Shown: piece after piece, positions 26,121 to 41,725 of the stretch | Layout of the letters: each line of letters starts with the position of its first letter | Numbering within the stretch: position 1 is the first letter of the stretch | Origin: a virus | Length of the DNA: 44,242 nt | Virus record (IMG/VR): IMGVR_UViG_3300042731_007312 | Coordinates: 1-44,242 of that record | Reading direction: 5' to 3' (one strand) | Notes under the pieces: model-generated | The model's database searches: none | What the model was told of the DNA's origin: nothing | Seen by the model: the letters and a program-made list of their open reading frames with translations, nothing else | Position numbers and translations under genes: made by a program

Positions 26121-26352
26121 TTTTCACCTCTCCTCGTGCCATAATGGCACATTCTATCTTGTATGACAAGGGACCGATGCCCTCTTGCCTCATACGCTTG
26201 AGCAAGTCGGGGTAGTCTTCCCATTCGCTCGCCTTTATGACGCCGTTTCCGTAAAACTGCTCGCGGGCGTATTCAGCGAGTTCCTCAAGCGACGTCCATT
26301 TCTCGTGTTTCACATAGTACGTGTCAAGTAAATCGTCAATCCACTGGTCCAC
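26083..26352 (-). CDS. Hypothetical helical protein
   Basis: The 89-residue product starts with GTG 26352 inside the nuclease gene and overlaps the NUMOD4-HTH gene by 38 bases. It is mostly helical (WIDDLLDTYYVKHEKW, LEELAEYAREQFYG) with a basic end. I recognise no family. The overlaps on both sides suggest a translationally coupled cassette with its neighbours. Confidence 0.5.
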   Translation of the reverse strand: MDQWIDDLLDTYYVKHEKWTSLEELAEYAREQFYGNGVIKASEWEDYPDLLKRMRQEGIGPLSYKIECAIMARGEVKIGRRKIRSNGKG

Positions 26353-26854
26353 AGAGCGCCTCCCTGTATCCGAAGTTTACTATGTCCGACCAGTGAATCA
26401 CAAGTACCCTGTATCCCATACTTTCGAGGTCGAGGAGTCGCTTCGCCTCGTACTCAGGCGACTTCCCGAAAACGACCGGGTCGTCGTGTACCTCTCCGTT
26501 CACCTCGATGATGGTGTTCCCGACGACAAAGTCGACCACGTACCTGTCGAGCACCACCTCGCGCTCGTACTCGACCCCCTCTTTGTCGAGCGCCTTCGCA
26601 ACCGCCTGCTCGTGACAAGAGGGGTTTCGCCGCCGCCACGAGGCCATGCGTTCGAGTACGTACTCGCGCCCGTAACGGCTCATCGTAGCCTGATAGCCGA
26701 GCCGACCGATACGACTCATTTCGGTGCGGTCGGCTGCGCGAGCTTTCCCGGCTCGTACCTGGTGCTCGTGGAAGTCGGGCAAAGAGGCGCGAGCGCGGCC
26801 CCCCTTCGCCGCTATCTCGCGCCTTCGTTCCGCCGTAAGGTGTTGAAAACCCAT
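26336..26854 (-). CDS. DUF559/Vsr-type PD-(D/E)XK nuclease-like protein
   Basis: The 172-residue protein starts at ATG 26854, joined TAAATG to the gene before it. The N-terminal half is basic with a KGGRARA motif, likely DNA-binding. The C-terminal half has the Vsr/DUF559 endonuclease pattern: SCHEQAVAKALDKEGVEYEREV, then YVVDFVVGNTIIEVNGEVH (acidic residues D and E of the PD-(D/E)XK site) and a final GYRVLVIHWSDI strand-helix. Vsr-like enzymes nick DNA; free-standing phage members often act as homing or recombination nucleases. The exact substrate is unknown. Confidence 0.7.
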   Translation of the reverse strand: MGFQHLTAERRREIAAKGGRARASLPDFHEHQVRAGKARAADRTEMSRIGRLGYQATMSRYGREYVLERMASWRRRNPSCHEQAVAKALDKEGVEYEREVVLDRYVVDFVVGNTIIEVNGEVHDDPVVFGKSPEYEAKRLLDLESMGYRVLVIHWSDIVNFGYREALCGPVD

Positions 26855-27238
26855 TTAGTTGAACACCCCTGCTCGGCCCCACACCTGCGCCCCGTTGTCG
26901 GCGTTGAGTATCTCGACCGTGTAGGGGTTTCCTTCGGCCTCTTCTTCGGTGATAAACTCAACGAGGCCGAAATGCTTCGCCACAGCCGCTAAGGCGTGGT
27001 AGCATATGGTTTCGAGCCGCCTCGTGTTCGGGCCGTTCCCCGGGCACTGCTCGCCGGTGTCGGCGTCGGCGCAGCTCACGACCGCGAGATTCCCGAACTG
27101 CTTGAGGGCCACTTTGTAATCACCCTTCGAACCGGGCACTGTGTAAACCCACTGCTCGCCTTCTATCACGCCCTTCGCCGCCTTCGCCGCTTCGAGAGCT
27201 TTTTCCTCTCTTCCCTTCACACTGTCTAAAACCGTCAT
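26855..27238 (-). CDS. SWIM-like zinc-binding protein (tentative)
   Basis: The 127-residue product has a likely metal site of Cys residues (VVSCADADTGEQCPGNG) followed by CYHALAAVAKHF, the C-x-H end typical of SWIM zinc fingers. The rest is alpha/beta with a lysine-rich first helix. It is the first gene after a strong promoter and has a leader with AAAGGAGAC. The leader is nearly identical to that of the STAS-like gene at 31020-31319. Function unknown; SWIM domains usually bind nucleic acid or protein. Confidence 0.5.
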   Translation of the reverse strand: MTVLDSVKGREEKALEAAKAAKGVIEGEQWVYTVPGSKGDYKVALKQFGNLAVVSCADADTGEQCPGNGPNTRRLETICYHALAAVAKHFGLVEFITEEEAEGNPYTVEILNADNGAQVWGRAGVFN

Positions 27239-27313: not shown

Positions 27314-27582
27314 GGGTTTTTTCTCTCAGTTTCGAGATATTCGTAAATCCCCTCAACAAACCCCACGACGGCTGCATCAGACCATCGAGTGTCCCCCCAG
27401 GCGTGCTCGACTTCGACGGTTCCCTGAGCGCGAAGCCTTTTCGCCCTTACGAGGGTAGCCGTCGAATACGGACGGTGAAACGTCGGGCGTGTCTGATTGT
27501 GCTCGATGTACCAGTCAAAGAAGCTCGTGACACAGTTCTCTCGTCCTGTGTCACGAAGCCACTTGTTGTATGCCTCACGCAT
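27310..27582 (-). CDS. Hypothetical protein
   Basis: The 90-residue product starts in a short overlap with the HD-domain gene. It contains NCVTSFFDWYIEHNQTRPTFHRPYSTATLV and a helical end (GFVEGIYEYLETER). I recognise no family. Its 3' end overlaps the -35 region of the promoter for the next gene. Confidence 0.5.
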   Translation of the reverse strand: MREAYNKWLRDTGRENCVTSFFDWYIEHNQTRPTFHRPYSTATLVRAKRLRAQGTVEVEHAWGDTRWSDAAVVGFVEGIYEYLETERKNP

Positions 27583-28420
27583 GTTCGGCCCTCATTATCT
27601 CAATCATCGCCTCGCGGGTCATCGAGGGGTCAGCATCGAAACGCTCTTCCATCGCCCTCTTGATGCGCCCGATGTCGGGGCCAGTCGCGCCGGTCGCTTC
27701 CATTATGTCGTGCCCGTCGATGGGCATACGGGGCGCGGTCGCTTCCATTTCGGCCTTTATCGAGCGTATGTGCTCGATGTGCTCGTCGATGTCGGGGTCG
27801 CGTGCTATACGGTCGGCCCTGTGCATTTCCATAATCTCGTCGAATATCGAGGCTCGACCGGTCTCGATGCGCGAGAAGTGGGTCCGGCGAATGAAGCGGC
27901 GAATGGTTTTCGCCTTTGCGCCCCGGGCAGGTATGCCCATGTGCTCGCGTGCTATCGCACATATCATTTCGGTGTCAGCCTTCGAGAAACGGAAGCGCTC
28001 GCAGAACCGACGCGCTATTTTCTCAGACTCGGCCTCGTGCCCGAAAAAGGTGAAGCCTTCGCCGTCCGCTCGAGGCTCTGCACAGGCGGGCTTCCCTGCG
28101 TCGTGGAACATCGCCGCTATCCTCATTATCGACCGGGGGGTCGAGGCGGTCGCTCGTATCGCCTCCATCGCCTCACAGGTGTGGTCGAAAATGTCGGTTT
28201 CCCCGTGATGGGCACACTGCTTGTGCCCGATACACTCAGTGATTTCAGGCGCTATGTCGGCGAATATGCCGAACTCGGCCCATATGCTCATGGCCCGGGA
28301 AGCGGACGGGGTCTCCATCATCTTGATGATTTCGTCCCGTATGCGCTCGGGTGCAATGCTCATATGTGCCCCTCTCGCTATCGCTTTTCGCATCGCTCGT
28401 TCACTGTCACGGTGTATCAT
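27575..28420 (-). CDS. C-terminal half of split CCA-adding enzyme (neck and HD domain)
   Basis: The 281-residue product, from ATG 28420 after AAGGAGA, begins exactly where the neck of a class II tRNA nucleotidyltransferase would continue (IHRDSERAMRKAIARGAHMSI), followed by APERIRDEIIKMM, the conserved ERIRDE motif. An HD phosphohydrolase domain follows: FDHT (H80), MFHDAGKP (H106, D107) and FGHEAES (H128). This matches the C-terminal two thirds of the bacterial enzyme. The head domain is encoded separately about 4.5 kb upstream (32950-33459). Family knowledge: the neck and body bind the tRNA acceptor end, and the HD domain has phosphatase/phosphodiesterase activity. The two chains should assemble to add CCA to tRNAs. 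Confidence 0.8.
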   Translation of the reverse strand: MIHRDSERAMRKAIARGAHMSIAPERIRDEIIKMMETPSASRAMSIWAEFGIFADIAPEITECIGHKQCAHHGETDIFDHTCEAMEAIRATASTPRSIMRIAAMFHDAGKPACAEPRADGEGFTFFGHEAESEKIARRFCERFRFSKADTEMICAIAREHMGIPARGAKAKTIRRFIRRTHFSRIETGRASIFDEIMEMHRADRIARDPDIDEHIEHIRSIKAEMEATAPRMPIDGHDIMEATGATGPDIGRIKRAMEERFDADPSMTREAMIEIMRAEHA

Positions 28421-28442
28421 TACTTTCAATCTCCTTGACAAA

Positions 28443-28471
28443 AGTATACCATGACGCCCCCGGTTTGTCAA
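28443..28471 (-). promoter_or_regulatory. Promoter for CCA C-half gene, with inverted repeat
   Basis: TTGACA, 17 bases ending TGG, then TATACT. The nine bases CTTGACAAA (plus-strand 28464-28472) are perfectly complementary to TTTGTCAAG (28434-28442), which overlaps the ribosome site. The left arm would be absent from transcripts starting here but present in read-through RNA. Confidence 0.8.
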
Positions 28472-28479
28472 GAAATTTT

Positions 28480-28899
28480 TCATAACAGTTCGTTGAGTTT
28501 CTTAAACACCCTCTCGCAGTGCTCTTTGTCGTCGGTTGACGTTACCCTGAGCTTTTGCCCGTCAAACGTTGTGACCACGAGGATGTACTGTTTTTCGCCG
28601 CCGCAGAGAGGGTCGGGGCGTTCAACGCCGTAGCTCACAGTTTTGATGTCTGTGAGCCTGACGGTTCCGCAGCCCCCGAAAAAGAACCTCTTTTCCTCGA
28701 ACGCATCGAGCCGACCTCGGAGCGCCTTGTATGCGCTTTCAACGACTTTGAACTCAGCAGGACCGAACGAACTGACACCGCCTTCGGTGTGAAGTACCTG
28801 AAGATAGTATGTCAGGCCGTCCTTCACCGTTGCGACAGACTTTATGTCCCGTATGTCGACAATCATTCTAAGGGAATCGTCACTCCATAGGTATTTCAT
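28480..28899 (-). CDS. Hypothetical protein
   Basis: The 139-residue product begins in an ATGA overlap, with GGGAGGAAAA as its ribosome site. It alternates strands and helices (LRMIVDIRDIKSVATVKDGLTYYLQVL; YILVVTTFDGQKLRVTSTDDKEHCERVFKKL), a pattern of small PH-like or TBP-like folds, but I cannot assign a family. Its stop lies just before the promoter of the CCA C-half gene. Confidence 0.5.
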   Translation of the reverse strand: MKYLWSDDSLRMIVDIRDIKSVATVKDGLTYYLQVLHTEGGVSSFGPAEFKVVESAYKALRGRLDAFEEKRFFFGGCGTVRLTDIKTVSYGVERPDPLCGGEKQYILVVTTFDGQKLRVTSTDDKEHCERVFKKLNELL

Positions 28900-29753
28900 T
28901 TTTCCTCCCTCTCGTTTATCCATTCGACTATATCCGACACGCTGATGGTAAGTTCTGCGTTCGGCTCAATCATTTCGTTGGCGAAGGAGAGGTGTGCTTC
29001 CCAGGCGTTGCGAGATACCTCTTCGCCGTGTTCGCCTTCGACAATGTCACCATCGTCTACATGTACCACCTCGTCAAAGTTCATGACACCCCAGGCCGTG
29101 TCGCGGCGGCGGTAATGAATTTCCTCGAGCACGTTCAAGGCGAGAAGGTGCGGGCCATGCGGCAGGTCTGTGAAGTCGCCTCTGTACGTCCGGTAATTGA
29201 GCATCACGTTCGTGAACATGTTCCCGTCGTCGTCGTACCTGACGGTAAGACCCTCACGCCACGTGGTGAACGGAATCCGAAAGTGCTTGACATACGTACT
29301 GTCGAGCCGCACCGGATACCATCTCCCATCCTCAAGCGTGTCTGTAAGCACTCGTGTTAAGCCTGTGAGTGCATACTCACGAACGACCGGGAAACCGTGT
29401 CGGTCGGTCTGTGTCCAGTTCTCGTTAGCGCGAACGTCTCGCGCGTCAATCCCCTCGAGCCGGTGAAGCCACGCAGTTTTGTGGGTGTTGTAACTTTCCC
29501 AACCGGCCTCTTCGGACATAAGCGAGAAAAAGAAGCCGGTGTCGTTCCTGTACGACACGCGCCACAGTACCGCCATGTAGTCGCCTGCTGCCCAGGGGGC
29601 CGGTGCAGTTTTTATGTGCCACACATTCACCACTTCAGGGCGCGACAGGGCATGGAAACCGGCCTTCTCACTTAGTTTCGAGTTCGCTGCAACTCGAAAT
29701 GGTATGTCAACTCGTGCCGTCGCTATGGTGTCTTTCAATATAGATGCTTTCAT
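28896..29753 (-). CDS. Hypothetical protein, paralogue of the 29988-30848 product
   Basis: The 285-residue protein starts at ATG 29753 after GAGGAG. Its end (WGVMNFDEVVHVDDGDIVEG, SRNAWEAHLSFANEMIEP, IVEWINEREEK) closely parallels the product of the gene 235 bases upstream, so the two are duplicates separated by one small gene. The middle contains beta-strands and a conserved-looking IPFTTWREGLTVRYDDDGNMF segment. Function unknown. Confidence 0.6.
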   Translation of the reverse strand: MKASILKDTIATARVDIPFRVAANSKLSEKAGFHALSRPEVVNVWHIKTAPAPWAAGDYMAVLWRVSYRNDTGFFFSLMSEEAGWESYNTHKTAWLHRLEGIDARDVRANENWTQTDRHGFPVVREYALTGLTRVLTDTLEDGRWYPVRLDSTYVKHFRIPFTTWREGLTVRYDDDGNMFTNVMLNYRTYRGDFTDLPHGPHLLALNVLEEIHYRRRDTAWGVMNFDEVVHVDDGDIVEGEHGEEVSRNAWEAHLSFANEMIEPNAELTISVSDIVEWINEREEK

Positions 29754-29760
29754 CGTCTCC

Positions 29761-30000
29761 TCACTGTTCTGCGGCATACTCGAGACCGCGAATTATGTTC
29801 TCGTGTGTCGTAACAGTCCCCAGGCTCCAGCCTGGGACCGGGATTCCTTCCGCCTTTATCACTATCGGGCGCGGTTCACATATGTCAAAGCTATACACAC
29901 CCTCTTTTCCACTGACCGACCTTACCGTCGCGTCGATGTACAGACCGGGTTCCTGCCGGAGCGTCATTTCTGCGCCCTCAGGAATAGTTATCGTGAGCAT
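29761..30000 (-). CDS. Hypothetical small beta-rich protein
   Basis: The ATG at 30000 has well-spaced AGGGGA; an ATG at 30006 is too close to it. The 79 residues begin with repeated strands (MLTITIPEGAEMTL, GLYIDATVRSVSG) and end with a helix. It lies between the two paralogous genes and overlaps the first by 13 bases. Function unknown. Confidence 0.5.
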   Translation of the reverse strand: MLTITIPEGAEMTLRQEPGLYIDATVRSVSGKEGVYSFDICEPRPIVIKAEGIPVPGWSLGTVTTHENIIRGLEYAAEQ

Positions 30001-30848
30001 ATCCATTCCCCTATTTCATCGAGCGTGACGGTCCCCTCGAGTGGGTCGAGCATTTCGTCTGCAAATGCTCGATGTGCTTTCCACACGGAGCGCGTCACCT
30101 CGACGCCTTCCCCTTCGCCGACCTCTTGCCCATTCGTGATGTATACTCGCTCGTCGGCGTAGTAGTTGCCCCAGGGAGTGTCCATCACATGGTGGTATTC
30201 GGAGAGTGCTTGAAGGGCGATTTCGTAACGCCCGTTCGGGCCGGTGTACGCTCCCTCATACACCCATCGGACGAACCCCCTCATCGTCGTGAACAAAGAA
30301 CCGTCCCGCTGATACACGACAAGGCCGTCCTTCTTGAACGAGGTGTGCGGGATAAAGAAAAAGTCGCGGTCACGCAGGTTTACCGGCTTCCAATCGCCGA
30401 GCTTCTCGAGTGCGTCGCTCAACAGCGCAGTCAGCCCGTCAAGCTGTGCGAGCCTGAGGTAGAAAAGGCCGTCCTTCTCGAACCACCATTCGTCAATTTC
30501 CGAAGCCGCCTTTAGCGCCTCCGACGTGTACACGAACGCGGGCGCGTCGGGTTTGTAGCGGTTCCATTCCACGTCACTCGAGAGTAAGGCGACGAAATAC
30601 AGTTTGTTCCGTTTCCCCTCGTGTGAGGGTCGCTGTGCCCGGAACAGCACAGCCGTGTACTCGCCTTCTGCAAGCGGGACGGGGGTCGCCTCAACCGTCC
30701 ACATGTTCACGACCGTCGCGTTAAAATAGGGCGTAAAACCGCCCGAGCCATTGAAGGATGACTCGACGGTCTCTGCAAGGTCACACGCACCCGTCACCTC
30801 GAACGGGAAGCTGACCCTTACCCTTAACAACGTGTAGTTTACAATCAT
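29988..30848 (-). CDS. Hypothetical protein, paralogue of the 28896-29753 product
   Basis: The ATG at 30848 is seven bases after GAGG and overlaps the small membrane-protein gene as ATGA; the ATG at 30854 is too close to GAGG. The 286 residues share with the paralogue VVNMWTVEATPVP (compare VVNVWHIKTAPAP), the central FIPHTSFKKDGLVVYQRDGSLF segment, and the C-terminal WGNYYADERVYITNGQEVGEG, SRSVWKAHRAFADEM-type end. The pair is diverged, so the duplication is not recent. Function unknown. Confidence 0.6.
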   Translation of the reverse strand: MIVNYTLLRVRVSFPFEVTGACDLAETVESSFNGSGGFTPYFNATVVNMWTVEATPVPLAEGEYTAVLFRAQRPSHEGKRNKLYFVALLSSDVEWNRYKPDAPAFVYTSEALKAASEIDEWWFEKDGLFYLRLAQLDGLTALLSDALEKLGDWKPVNLRDRDFFFIPHTSFKKDGLVVYQRDGSLFTTMRGFVRWVYEGAYTGPNGRYEIALQALSEYHHVMDTPWGNYYADERVYITNGQEVGEGEGVEVTRSVWKAHRAFADEMLDPLEGTVTLDEIGEWICSR

Positions 30849-30976
30849 CGCCATGCCTCGATTATTCGAACGACACCGTCAACAAACTCGGGCCTCGTGA
30901 GGGCCATTAACAAAGCGACAAACGAAACTGCCCCTACTATCGCCAGGGTGAGTATCGCCTCTGTGAAGTTTGTCAT
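30845..30976 (-). CDS. Small single-pass membrane protein
   Basis: This 43-residue gene is supported by AAGGAGG seven bases before its ATG and an ATGA overlap with the next gene. Residues 8-26 (ILTLAIVGAVSFVALLMAL) form one membrane helix, followed by an amphipathic end. The ribosome site is joined to the palindrome at 30988-30997. Function unknown. Confidence 0.6.
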   Translation of the reverse strand: MTNFTEAILTLAIVGAVSFVALLMALTRPEFVDGVVRIIEAWR

Positions 30977-30987
30977 ATCACGCCTCC

Positions 30988-30997
30988 TTAGCGCTAA
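30988..30997. repeat. Palindrome TTAGCGCTAA, copy 5 of 7
   Basis: The only intergenic copy. It lies between a terminator T-run and a small membrane-protein gene, and its right side forms part of that gene's ribosome site (TAAGGAGG). Confidence 0.85.
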
Positions 30998-31019
30998 AAA
31001 AAATTCGGGCTTCCGCCCG
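30996..31019 (-). terminator. Intrinsic terminator after STAS-like gene
   Basis: CGGGC-GGAA-GCCCG is followed on the minus strand by AA and eight Ts. The five-base-pair stem is short but G/C-only. It lies directly after the STAS-like gene stop and should end or reduce its transcript. Confidence 0.75.
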
Positions 31020-31319
31020 TTATGTTATTTTACCTTCGGCCATCGCTCGTTTTCGGTGATTGATAGCCATTTTAATTAGGGCTTTCAGGTCTGTCCGACC
31101 GTTAAACTCGAACTTGATGGTTCGGAGCGTCTCGACCTCGAACTCCCTCAAGAGCTTCCCGAACACCTCGTCCATAAAACCGTGAGCGAAATGGCCCAGG
31201 CTGTTGAACTCAACGATTATGTCTTCGCCTTCCCGCAGCGCCTCTGCTATGCGCTCACGTAGTTGTTCCGACGCCCCACTCATAAACCTGTTCTCGCCAC
31301 TCTCAATCGTCAGTTGCAT
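31020..31319 (-). CDS. STAS-like protein (DUF4325 type)
   Basis: The 99-residue product has the DUF4325 pattern: IIVEFNSLGHFAHGFMDEVFGKLLREF, IKFEFNGRTDLKALIKMAI, NHRKR. DUF4325 proteins are STAS-like and are often found next to an ATPase/HTH partner; none is adjacent here. It has its own promoter, the duplicated leader, and a terminator immediately after it, so it is a one-gene transcript unit. A sensing or protein-interaction role is inferred. Confidence 0.7.
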   Translation of the reverse strand: MQLTIESGENRFMSGASEQLRERIAEALREGEDIIVEFNSLGHFAHGFMDEVFGKLLREFEVETLRTIKFEFNGRTDLKALIKMAINHRKRAMAEGKIT

Positions 31320-31341
31320 TTCCGTCTCCTTTACTCGTTAG
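31317..31341 (-). repeat. Duplicated 25-base leader, copy 2
   Basis: Matches 27236-27260 at 24 of 25 positions, spanning the ribosome site and start codon. The promoter upstream has the same form, but the bases between promoter and repeat differ. Confidence 0.85.
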
Positions 31342-31368
31342 CTGTTTTTCCTTAACTCTGATGATTGA

Positions 31369-31398
31369 ATTATACCACGCCGAGGAGGTATTTGTCAA
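31369..31398 (-). promoter_or_regulatory. Consensus sigma70 promoter
   Basis: TTGACA, 18 bases ending TGG, then TATAAT, located at the 3' end of the preceding gene and driving the STAS-like gene. Confidence 0.85.
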
Positions 31399-31831
31399 GC
31401 AATATTTCGCGCCTGGAGGCATCATTTTCTACCAGTTTTGTTACAAGCACCTCGATGTAGTTATCGAGATTGTGTGTGTGCCACAAAACTGCAACCTCGC
31501 GCTTTACCGGTTCCGTATTCAGGTCACGTGCGAGAAGGTGCTCAAACAGTACGTCAAGCTGGCACATCAAGGCGACTGCAAGCTGATGTGTGACCTCGTC
31601 GGTGTCGTATGCGAACGCTCGAGGCCAGCCTTCAGGGAGCTTGAAGTCGGCCTCGAGCCGGTCAAGCACCTGCCCGACCGGCGGGCGTCGTGTTACCCCC
31701 TTCACGAGTGGGCCTCTGTATTCGGCCCACTCGTTGTGAGTGACGCACTGTATAGCGTCCCTCACCTCCGTGACGATGTCGTATGGGTCGCCTTCCCCCT
31801 CAAAGACCGCCAGAACTATCGTCTCGCTCAT
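31370..31831 (-). CDS. Hypothetical protein
   Basis: The 153-residue product starts in an ATGA overlap. It looks alpha/beta with a helical centre (DEVTHQLAVALMCQLDVLFEHLL) and a strand-rich end. It shows no recognised motif. Its last 29 bases contain the promoter for the STAS-like gene. Confidence 0.5.
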   Translation of the reverse strand: MSETIVLAVFEGEGDPYDIVTEVRDAIQCVTHNEWAEYRGPLVKGVTRRPPVGQVLDRLEADFKLPEGWPRAFAYDTDEVTHQLAVALMCQLDVLFEHLLARDLNTEPVKREVAVLWHTHNLDNYIEVLVTKLVENDASRREILLDKYLLGVV

Positions 31832-32310
31832 ACGCTGATACGCACCGGTTCGTCCGGGTTATCGGCTACGTATTGTGCAAGCTCGAGAAGCTCGAGCATC
31901 CACTCCTTGTACATCTTAAGCGAGACCTCGCTATAGTGGGGCGCGAACAGTTCGACCGGGACGAGCATCGCACCCCGCTCGTCAAACTTCGCACCCTTGA
32001 TGCGCTCGCGGAATCCCTTCTGGCGCGGGAATCGCTTCCCGTCCATGTAGTCGAGGTAGGCGGGCAGGTCAATCCTGATGTACGCCTCTTCGAGCGCTTC
32101 GACTGCCTCAGCGTACTTCTCGCACAGAGACAGGAAACCGCCCCGGTCAAAGTCGACCTCGCCTCGAGCGACGGGCCTCGTATGTAAGTAGATGTTCGCG
32201 CCCGTCTCGTCCTCTACCTGAGCACAGTTCACTCTCAGGAACGCCTCGAGCGAGAACGGGTTCCTAAACCAGTTTACTTCGTAACCGTTACAACTCATGT
32301 CAAATGACAT
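31828..32310 (-). CDS. Hypothetical protein
   Basis: The 160-residue product uses ATG 32310 after GAGGAGG. It is mainly helical (FLSLCEKYAEAVEALEEAYIRIDLP, YKEWMLELLELAQYVAD) with a first strand region containing NWFRNPFSLEAFLRVN. I recognise no family. Its end is coupled by ATGA to the next gene. Confidence 0.5.
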   Translation of the reverse strand: MSFDMSCNGYEVNWFRNPFSLEAFLRVNCAQVEDETGANIYLHTRPVARGEVDFDRGGFLSLCEKYAEAVEALEEAYIRIDLPAYLDYMDGKRFPRQKGFRERIKGAKFDERGAMLVPVELFAPHYSEVSLKMYKEWMLELLELAQYVADNPDEPVRISV

Positions 32311-32551
32311 TTTCGGCCTCCTCGCGCGGTCGCGCGTCAATCATCCGAATCTGATAGTATTTGAGCGGAAGCTCATGCGGTTTTTCGAGGGTCGCGTGAT
32401 ACAGACCGTCTGAGAACTCGAGCTTCACCGTCAGCCTCGTGGGCGCTGGTGTCTCGTACTCGCCTTCGACGCTCGACACCAGCTTGAACAATGCGCGTGC
32501 CGCCTGTGCGGGCGTCTTCCCGATTCCTGTCGGCCCAGGGTGCTCACTCAT
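32300..32551 (-). CDS. Hypothetical small beta-rich protein
   Basis: ATG 32551 gives 83 residues. The first half is helical (IGKTPAQAARALFKLVSSVEG) and the second beta-rich (RLTVKLEFSDGLYHATLEKP). It shares short overlaps with both neighbours. Function unknown. Confidence 0.5.
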   Translation of the reverse strand: MSEHPGPTGIGKTPAQAARALFKLVSSVEGEYETPAPTRLTVKLEFSDGLYHATLEKPHELPLKYYQIRMIDARPREEAENVI

Positions 32552-32786
32552 CGCGAGACCTCGTTTCGTAAGGGAGCGCGTCGGGGTCTTTGAGCGTCGC
32601 CACAAATGCGTACTCCTCATATTCGTCGGTCGGCTTGACCACGAACGTCAACTCTTCCGGGTAGTCGGACTCGTCGTACTCGCCCGCAAGCCATTCCCAT
32701 GCCTTCACCTCGTCAAGCAGCGCACTGATAGCTTCAAAGTAAGTTTCACCGAACCCCTTCGGTCCTTCTTGCGTGTTTTCACCCAT
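32544..32786 (-). CDS. Hypothetical small acidic protein
   Basis: ATG 32786 follows AAGGAGTTGAC. The 80 residues have a helical start (ETYFEAISALLDEVKAWEWL) and strand-rich end (LTFVVKPTDEYEEYAFVATL). Its end pattern resembles that of its downstream neighbour. Function unknown. Confidence 0.5.
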   Translation of the reverse strand: MGENTQEGPKGFGETYFEAISALLDEVKAWEWLAGEYDESDYPEELTFVVKPTDEYEEYAFVATLKDPDALPYETRSRDE

Positions 32787-32795
32787 GTCAACTCC

Positions 32796-32936
32796 TTATG
32801 CTATAGATATTAAGACCGCCACGCGAATCGGCGTCCTTATTTGTAACCACTCAGACGGGCGCGGGAAGGTAAACCACGCCGTCAGCATTCCTAACACTGC
32901 CTCGTACACGAGGCGCTCGAGAAAATTCAGCTTCAT
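32796..32936 (-). CDS. Small hydrophobic protein
   Basis: This 46-residue gene has AAGGAGG well placed before its ATG and fits closely between two larger genes. It begins with a basic amphipathic stretch (MKLNFLERLVYEAVLGML) and contains aromatic, proline and hydrophobic residues; it may associate with membrane. No stretch is long enough to be sure of a membrane helix. Function unknown. Confidence 0.55.
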   Translation of the reverse strand: MKLNFLERLVYEAVLGMLTAWFTFPRPSEWLQIRTPIRVAVLISIA

Positions 32937-32949
32937 AGTAGCCTCCTTG

Positions 32950-33459
32950 TCATTCCCCGAATTTCGCTTCCATCCTCATCGCCCTGAAAATACGGGCGGG
33001 GTCTTCTTCAATACGGGCGGCAGCATCTTCGGTGAACCGGATAATGCCCGCCTCGATGTCGTCAAATGCGCCTTCGGGCGCGAAAATCTCGCCGGTCGCA
33101 GACCGGAACATAAACGCGCATATGGTCATGTCGCGCCCCTCAATGTCCCTCTCGATTGACGCACCCCTGAAGGTGGTTATCTCGAAGGTTTCGCCGTCCC
33201 GGATAATGATACAGGTCCCGTGCTTCGCCCCGCCCGCGTCGATACAGTCAGGGAACATACGCCTGATTTCAGAGGCCGACGCCGAAGTCGCTATGTCGAT
33301 GTCGTGAGGCGCTTCCCCTCTTATCCAGTCGCGTATCGCCCCGCCTGCTATGAAGGCCGCGTGACCGTGAGCCTCGATTTCGGCACATATCCGAATACCG
33401 CCCTCGAAACTCTCAGGTATTCTTTTAGGTGCTTCTCGGGTCTCAATCCTTATAGCCAT
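32950..33459 (-). CDS. N-terminal half of split CCA-adding enzyme (nucleotidyltransferase head)
   Basis: The 169-residue product starts at ATG 33459 after AAGGAGG. It carries all motifs of a class II tRNA nucleotidyltransferase head: GG (39-40) and RD (43-44) in GGAIRDWIRG, the metal-binding DxD (D53, D55) in PHDIDIATSA, GRDMTICAFMF (compare RRDFTINAMA) and EEDPARIFRAMR, the EDxxR motif that selects CTP and ATP. It stops directly after that motif, at the head/neck junction, where the product at 27575-28420 takes over. No neck or HD domain is present. The intact chemistry suggests a working two-chain enzyme rather than a pseudogene. Confidence 0.85.
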   Translation of the reverse strand: MAIRIETREAPKRIPESFEGGIRICAEIEAHGHAAFIAGGAIRDWIRGEAPHDIDIATSASASEIRRMFPDCIDAGGAKHGTCIIIRDGETFEITTFRGASIERDIEGRDMTICAFMFRSATGEIFAPEGAFDDIEAGIIRFTEDAAARIEEDPARIFRAMRMEAKFGE

Positions 33460-33460
33460 T

Positions 33461-33499
33461 CCGGCCTCCTTGTACTGAATTATACCATAGGGAGGCCGG
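33461..33499 (-). promoter_or_regulatory. Inverted repeat that could hide the CCA N-half ribosome site
   Basis: CCGGCCTCC (33491-33499) and GGAGGCCGG (33461-33469) on the minus strand form a 9-bp stem around the -10 box. The right arm contains the ribosome site GGAGG. Transcripts starting at the promoter lack the left arm; read-through transcripts have it. Confidence 0.65.
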
Positions 33500-33508
33500 G
33501 CTTGTCAA
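33479..33508 (-). promoter_or_regulatory. Promoter for CCA N-half gene
   Basis: TTGACA, 18 bases ending TGG, then TATAAT, followed closely by the ribosome site and start codon of the nucleotidyltransferase gene. Confidence 0.85.
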
Positions 33509-41623: not shown

Positions 41624-41652
41624 ATTATACCCTGCTTCGCCGTCTCTGTCAA
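41624..41652 (-). promoter_or_regulatory. Orphan consensus promoter overlapping tRNA 3' end
   Basis: TTGACA, 17 bases ending GGG, then TATAAT. The first T of the -35 box is the base directly after the tRNA acceptor stem, so tRNA and promoter are fused. No coding gene follows before the next promoter. Confidence 0.85.
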
Positions 41653-41725
41653 GCGCCAAGAGGGGCTTGAACCCTCGACACCGGGATTAAAAATCCCGTG
41701 CTCTACCAGTCTGAGCTATTGGCGC
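41653..41725 (-). tRNA. tRNA-Lys (anticodon UUU), no encoded CCA
   Basis: The cloverleaf is complete: perfect 7-bp acceptor stem (GCGCCAA with TTGGCGC), 4-bp D stem, 5-bp anticodon stem CGGGA/TCCCG with loop TTTTTAA (anticodon TTT) and a perfect T stem with TTCAAGC loop. The next base, where the discriminator belongs, is T, unlike the usual A of tRNA-Lys, and no CCA follows. The tRNA therefore needs a CCA-adding enzyme. Its 5' 39 bases also encode the end of the gene at 41687-41956. Confidence 0.92.

Follow-up and report, generated by a model that had tools for sequence, protein, structure and literature searches.

Class II tRNA nucleotidyltransferases, among them the phage enzymes of PHROG 2244 (tRNA nucleotidyltransferase), are each made as a single polypeptide in which a catalytic head is followed by neck, body and tail regions. 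Coding sequences shaped by scarce tRNAs or amino acids are known from codon-deficient expression under tRNA cleavage and from enzymes in which the very amino acid that they produce is avoided. Within class II, bacterial CC-adding enzymes retain the EDxxR motif and lack the flexible loop that otherwise separates motifs B and C; loss of this loop, which is needed for the addition of A, is their hallmark (PMC7014341). Jumbo phages have been described with tRNA repair sets consisting of RtcB, a CCA-adding enzyme and Thg1 (PMC7824862).

The window analysed here is a stretch of 44,242 nucleotides. It belongs to a phage contig of 161,983 bp, which it matches at 100% over 34 kb and at 99.99% over the rest, and which carries both genes described below at the same spacing. 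The enzyme agrees with the class II and PHROG 2244 enzymes in its motifs, in its invariant residues and in the order and fold of its domains, whereas it is encoded by two genes, lacks Leu, Val, Asn and Tyr, and has a shortened loop. With the bacterial CC-adding enzymes it shares the loop deletion and the retained EDxxR, but it is of phage origin, split and purged of particular codons, and its CC activity is a prediction. In comparison with the known cases of codon deficiency and self-avoidance the purge is near-total, takes in synonymous isoacceptors as well as five amino acids, and is found in a tRNA-repair enzyme. All three enzymes of the jumbo-phage repair sets are also encoded by this phage, but neither a codon purge nor a split of the CCA-adding enzyme was found described for those sets (PMC7824862).

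The catalytic head of the enzyme is encoded at 32950..33459 on the minus strand (169 aa), and the neck, body, tail and HD domain at 27575..28420, also on the minus strand (281 aa). Re-checking of the open reading frames confirmed the coordinates that an earlier note on this DNA had given for both products. In profile searches the head matches Pfam PolyA_pol (E 1.8e-18) and positions 4-149 of the 392 positions of PHROG 2244; the body matches PolyA_pol_RNAbd (2.3e-8), an HD domain and positions 152-381 of the same 392. The halves are complementary and non-overlapping, since these two intervals are adjacent parts of one profile. An alignment with intact phage enzymes places the seam directly after the EDxxR helix. 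The earlier note had regarded the products as complementary pieces of one enzyme and had proposed aligning them to the enzyme family as a check; they cover different parts of it, not the same part. Taken together, the two products very probably constitute one split class II tRNA nucleotidyltransferase. This reading is well supported by the profile matches, the retention of all invariant residues, the high-confidence models and the separate promoters.

The two genes lie on the same strand in the correct order and are separated by 4.5 kb (32950 minus 28420), as had been claimed. The intervening genes (28480..32786, minus strand) have a normal composition, with 16-33% Leu, Val, Asn and Tyr combined, and one of them encodes a DUF4325 STAS-like protein. 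Where eleven genes had been counted between the halves, the present count is about nine open reading frames of at least 79 aa plus small ones.

Each half has an intact promoter and ribosome-binding site of its own, again in agreement with the earlier claim. The head is preceded by an extended -10 promoter with 12/12 matches to the sigma-70-type consensus (33479..33508, minus strand; TTGACA-18-TATAAT) and by the Shine-Dalgarno sequence AAGGAGG (33465..33471, minus strand). The promoter of the body has 11/12 matches (28443..28471, minus strand; TTGACA-17-TATACT) and is followed by AAGGAG (28431..28436, minus strand). A longer body reading frame starting at 28483 is possible. The start is placed at 28420, because the promoter lies inside that longer frame and AAGGAG is found 10 nt upstream of the ATG at 28420. 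The codon purge in the body sets in exactly at this ATG. Between positions 27000 and 34500 of the window there are 14 promoters in all, against 3.6 expected; five on the minus strand have 11-12/12 consensus matches, one of which stands ahead of each half.

The head retains every column that is invariant in 29 relatives (G39, G40, R43, D44, D53, D55, R109, D110, E152, D153 and R156), and the body every column invariant in 21 relatives, including E25, R26 and E30 of the ER(I)xxE motif. Of the head motifs listed in the earlier note, GG/RD, DxD and EDxxR are therefore in place, but its 'RRD' reads GRD, with the invariant R109 and D110 present and the preceding arginine lost; the ERIRDE neck motif and the HD domain that it had assigned to the body are both borne out. 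AlphaFold2 models of the two products have pLDDT values of 93.3 (head) and 91.4 (body). The head model resembles the B. stearothermophilus enzyme (PDB 1miv, TM 0.85) and the body model the tRNA-processing enzymes PDB 3wfo-3wfs (including 3wfp/3wfs). The flexible loop, between R98 and D105, consists of 6 residues compared with 20-23 in the 29 relatives, a 16-residue deletion. Given a loop of this length and the status of loop loss as a hallmark of CC-adding enzymes, the split enzyme is likely to add CC rather than CCA, as far as its sequence indicates. The 'complete' CCA enzyme of the earlier note thus stands as a split class II enzyme, whereas its completeness is doubtful.

Other phages also carry interrupted genes for this enzyme. 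In two of them (L114:4024-6416 and L126:1340-3858) the CCA-enzyme gene is interrupted in the flexible-loop region by inserts of 0.8-0.9 kb that encode GIY-YIG-like nucleases; in a third (L099:2462-4033) the gene is in two open reading frames about 0.1 kb apart. The earlier note named no phage case of this enzyme split in the way seen here; the interruptions in these other phages are at another site and, in the first two, contain GIY-YIG inserts. An origin of the split by homing-type invasion is plausible in view of the interrupted relatives, two of them with such inserts. It could further be proposed that an insertion simply broke the enzyme and that the halves are dead, as phage genes for this enzyme sometimes have GIY-YIG inserts and a DUF559 nuclease-like gene is found at 26336-26854. 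This is very improbable: both halves have their own strong promoters and ribosome sites, confident folds and all invariant residues, their frames and starts are intact, so that neither has the marks of a pseudogene, and a directional purge common to both needs selection on both.

The purge is the main oddity of the locus and had no part in the earlier interpretation, of which the split is upheld. The 448 codons that follow the two start codons include no Leu, Val, Asn or Tyr codon, and Gln occurs once, in the body. From the 133 other open reading frames called on the 161,983-bp contig, 39 Leu, 39 Val, 14 Asn, 16 Tyr and 12 Gln would be expected; the joint nominal P for the absence of Leu, Val, Asn and Tyr is about 7e-54. 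These four amino acids make up about 24% of the phage's other genes and 12% of the lowest of the other called genes. At conserved LVNYQ columns the head matches 0/14 and the body 1/18 (medians for relatives 88% and 73%, respectively), compared with 43/56 and 35/41 at conserved columns of other residues. In the window, stretches of at least 40 residues free of them occur in these two genes only, whichever frame is read. Elsewhere on the contig no such run is longer than 54 residues, and the frames concerned are rich in Arg, Ser and Pro. Other runs that looked purged were rejected as Arg-, Pro- and Ser-rich shadow frames in high-GC DNA.

The purge extends to synonymous codons. All 24 Thr codons in the halves are ACC or ACT and none is ACA or ACG (P 8e-11), and 17 of the 18 Pro codons are CCC or CCT, with CCA or CCG used once (P 2e-5). 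GGA is absent from 31 Gly codons, which is weak evidence alone (P 0.012), while GGG is used 13 times. Codon choice is normal in the boxes of Ala, Arg, Ile, Glu, Lys and Ser, with ATA serving 28 times for Ile. Overall, 2 of the 448 codons belong to the avoided set, compared with a median of 34% in called genes. Under standard wobble rules the avoided synonymous groups correspond to the isoacceptors Thr-UGU/CGU, Pro-UGG/CGG and, probably, Gly-UCC. The codon purge is certain as a fact of the sequence. The pattern tracks tRNA isoacceptors and not protein chemistry, because synonymous codons are treated differently, and it points to selection on the making of this enzyme rather than on the locus, since two unlinked genes share it while the genes between them are normal.

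Several other causes of the purge can be weighed against these observations. Amino-acid sparing in proteins under nutrient limits is known, and the near absence of five amino acids could be attributed to selection on the protein or on amino-acid supply (protease avoidance or starvation) that removed Leu, Val, Asn, Tyr and Gln; this would leave the loss of ACR and CCR with retention of ACY and CCY unexplained, as well as the restriction of the effect to just these two of all phage genes, and is quite improbable. Avoidance of DNA or RNA motifs, such as restriction sites or the targets of an mRNA-cleaving toxin, might be considered as several DNA methylases are encoded by the phage. The avoided triplets are, however, frequent in the other two frames of both genes and common in neighbouring genes, and this frame test contradicts motif avoidance, which is left barely credible. 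The absence of whole codon sets might also suggest that the genes follow a private genetic code and write Leu, Val, Asn and Tyr with other codons. Yet the sites encoded by ATA, ATC, ATT, ATG and TTC all align to the same mixture of Ile, Val, Leu, Met and Phe, none of the codons corresponds to a single missing residue, and the invariant residues are correct in the standard code, so recoding is scarcely tenable.

The simplest account is a limitation of tRNAs, as the purge bears on the making of an enzyme whose own substrate is tRNA. The enzyme would be shaped for translation at a time when some tRNAs, attacked or lacking CCA, cannot be used, and would then restore them, a reading to which we give a probability of roughly one half. 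The genes are cleared of codons for all Leu, Val, Asn and Tyr and nearly all Gln, together with those of Thr-UGU/CGU, Pro-UGG/CGG and probably Gly-UCC. Transcribed from promoters of the host's sigma-70 type, they could be expressed at an early stage, when the corresponding tRNAs are out of use. After translation the catalytic head would presumably join the tRNA-binding half with its HD domain, to give one enzyme that repairs the 3' ends of tRNAs and probably adds CC, not CCA. It may then return the avoided tRNA set to use alongside the RtcB ligase and the Thg1-like polymerase of the phage. What limits the tRNAs, and which tRNAs these are, belong to the conjectural part of this account; candidate causes are a tRNA-attacking defence, damage by the infection itself, shut-off of the host by the phage, and CCA-less tRNAs dependent on the enzyme. 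The Cas12a3 defence, for example, cuts the CCA tails of tRNAs (PMC12851939). The target sets of the nucleases MenT1, Cas12a3 and AriB were compared with the avoided set and none equals it. It is an even chance, again, that the gene pair is confined to codons of still-functional tRNAs and so represents a self-bootstrapping repair enzyme.

The phage has genes for nine tRNAs, all lacking an encoded CCA, and a search with Rfam gave no tRNAs beyond this ARAGORN set. One is tRNA-Lys(UUU) at 41652..41725 (minus strand), noted earlier as lacking CCA, which may be a substrate of the enzyme. The RtcB ligase gene (L009:4524-5720, E 1.3e-74) adjoins tRNA-Gln and tRNA-Thr, and the gene of the Thg1-like 3'-5' polymerase (L008:9946-10734, E 9e-10) adjoins tRNA-Asp; a DHH protein is also encoded. 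Neither the RtcB nor the Thg1-like gene is purged. This fits a limitation tied to 3' ends, but would mean that not all repair genes come under it. The unpurged genes count against the tRNA-limitation reading, as do the weak GGA signal, the single example and a survey of encoded CCA. This survey, a partial one in four arbitrary, unrelated bacterial genomes, gave no match between the avoided set and the CCA-less tRNAs, a result that is not diagnostic.

A special case of the same reading dispenses with a defence, taking the purged codons as those of host or phage tRNAs whose genes lack CCA and which need this very enzyme, so that its synthesis would not call for its own products. It agrees with the isoacceptor-level pattern, which follows no anticodon rule, with the lack of an encoded CCA in all nine phage tRNAs, and with the encoding of CCA in only part of the tRNA genes of many bacteria (PMC10673834). 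On the other hand, the host's own enzyme should maintain a mature tRNA pool at infection, the Asp, Lys and Glu tRNAs of the phage also lack CCA and yet their codons are used, and none of the four genomes surveyed gave a match; this narrower version is unlikely. Limitation of tRNAs in its general form is the preferred reading.

In searches for the host, codon usage gave no pointer, the first 24 kb matched no known phage at the DNA level, and a cytosine methylase of the phage had, among species genomes, a best relative of only 43% identity. A second purged enzyme was not found among at least 80 viral relatives of the head, which have 20-33% Leu, Val, Asn and Tyr among the matches listed, nor in four scans of viral contigs with degenerate patterns, again among the matches listed. 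These searches covered part of the viral collection, in which the purge is known from one example. Literature searches brought up no earlier case of a repair enzyme purged of codons, although such absence is weak evidence.

A working-looking enzyme of about 450 residues with no Leu or Val is extraordinary, and offers a natural case of a large enzyme built on a reduced amino-acid alphabet. If the tRNA-limitation reading is true, the codon usage of the two genes would be a readable fingerprint of the tRNAs lost in infection, and it should be possible to translate both halves, one Gln apart, with four or five amino acids left out. In the enzyme one might also see a candidate answer to the open question raised in the Cas12a3 paper, of viral resistance to the loss of tRNA tails (PMC12851939).

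Some further features of the phage were observed. The contig (L004-L012) has 55% GC and odd codon usage, with ATA at 42% of Ile codons and GAC at 88% of Asp codons. Two of its tRNAs, tRNA-Lys (L004:8454-8527) and tRNA-Thr (L009:3099-3170), have U at the discriminator position, which is unusual for bacteria. Finally, a 68-nt RNA-like element (L011:11723-11790) scores as tmRNA with 56 bits; it has an acceptor stem (G3-U70) and a T arm with no tag-coding part, and is possibly a tRNA mimic or decoy.
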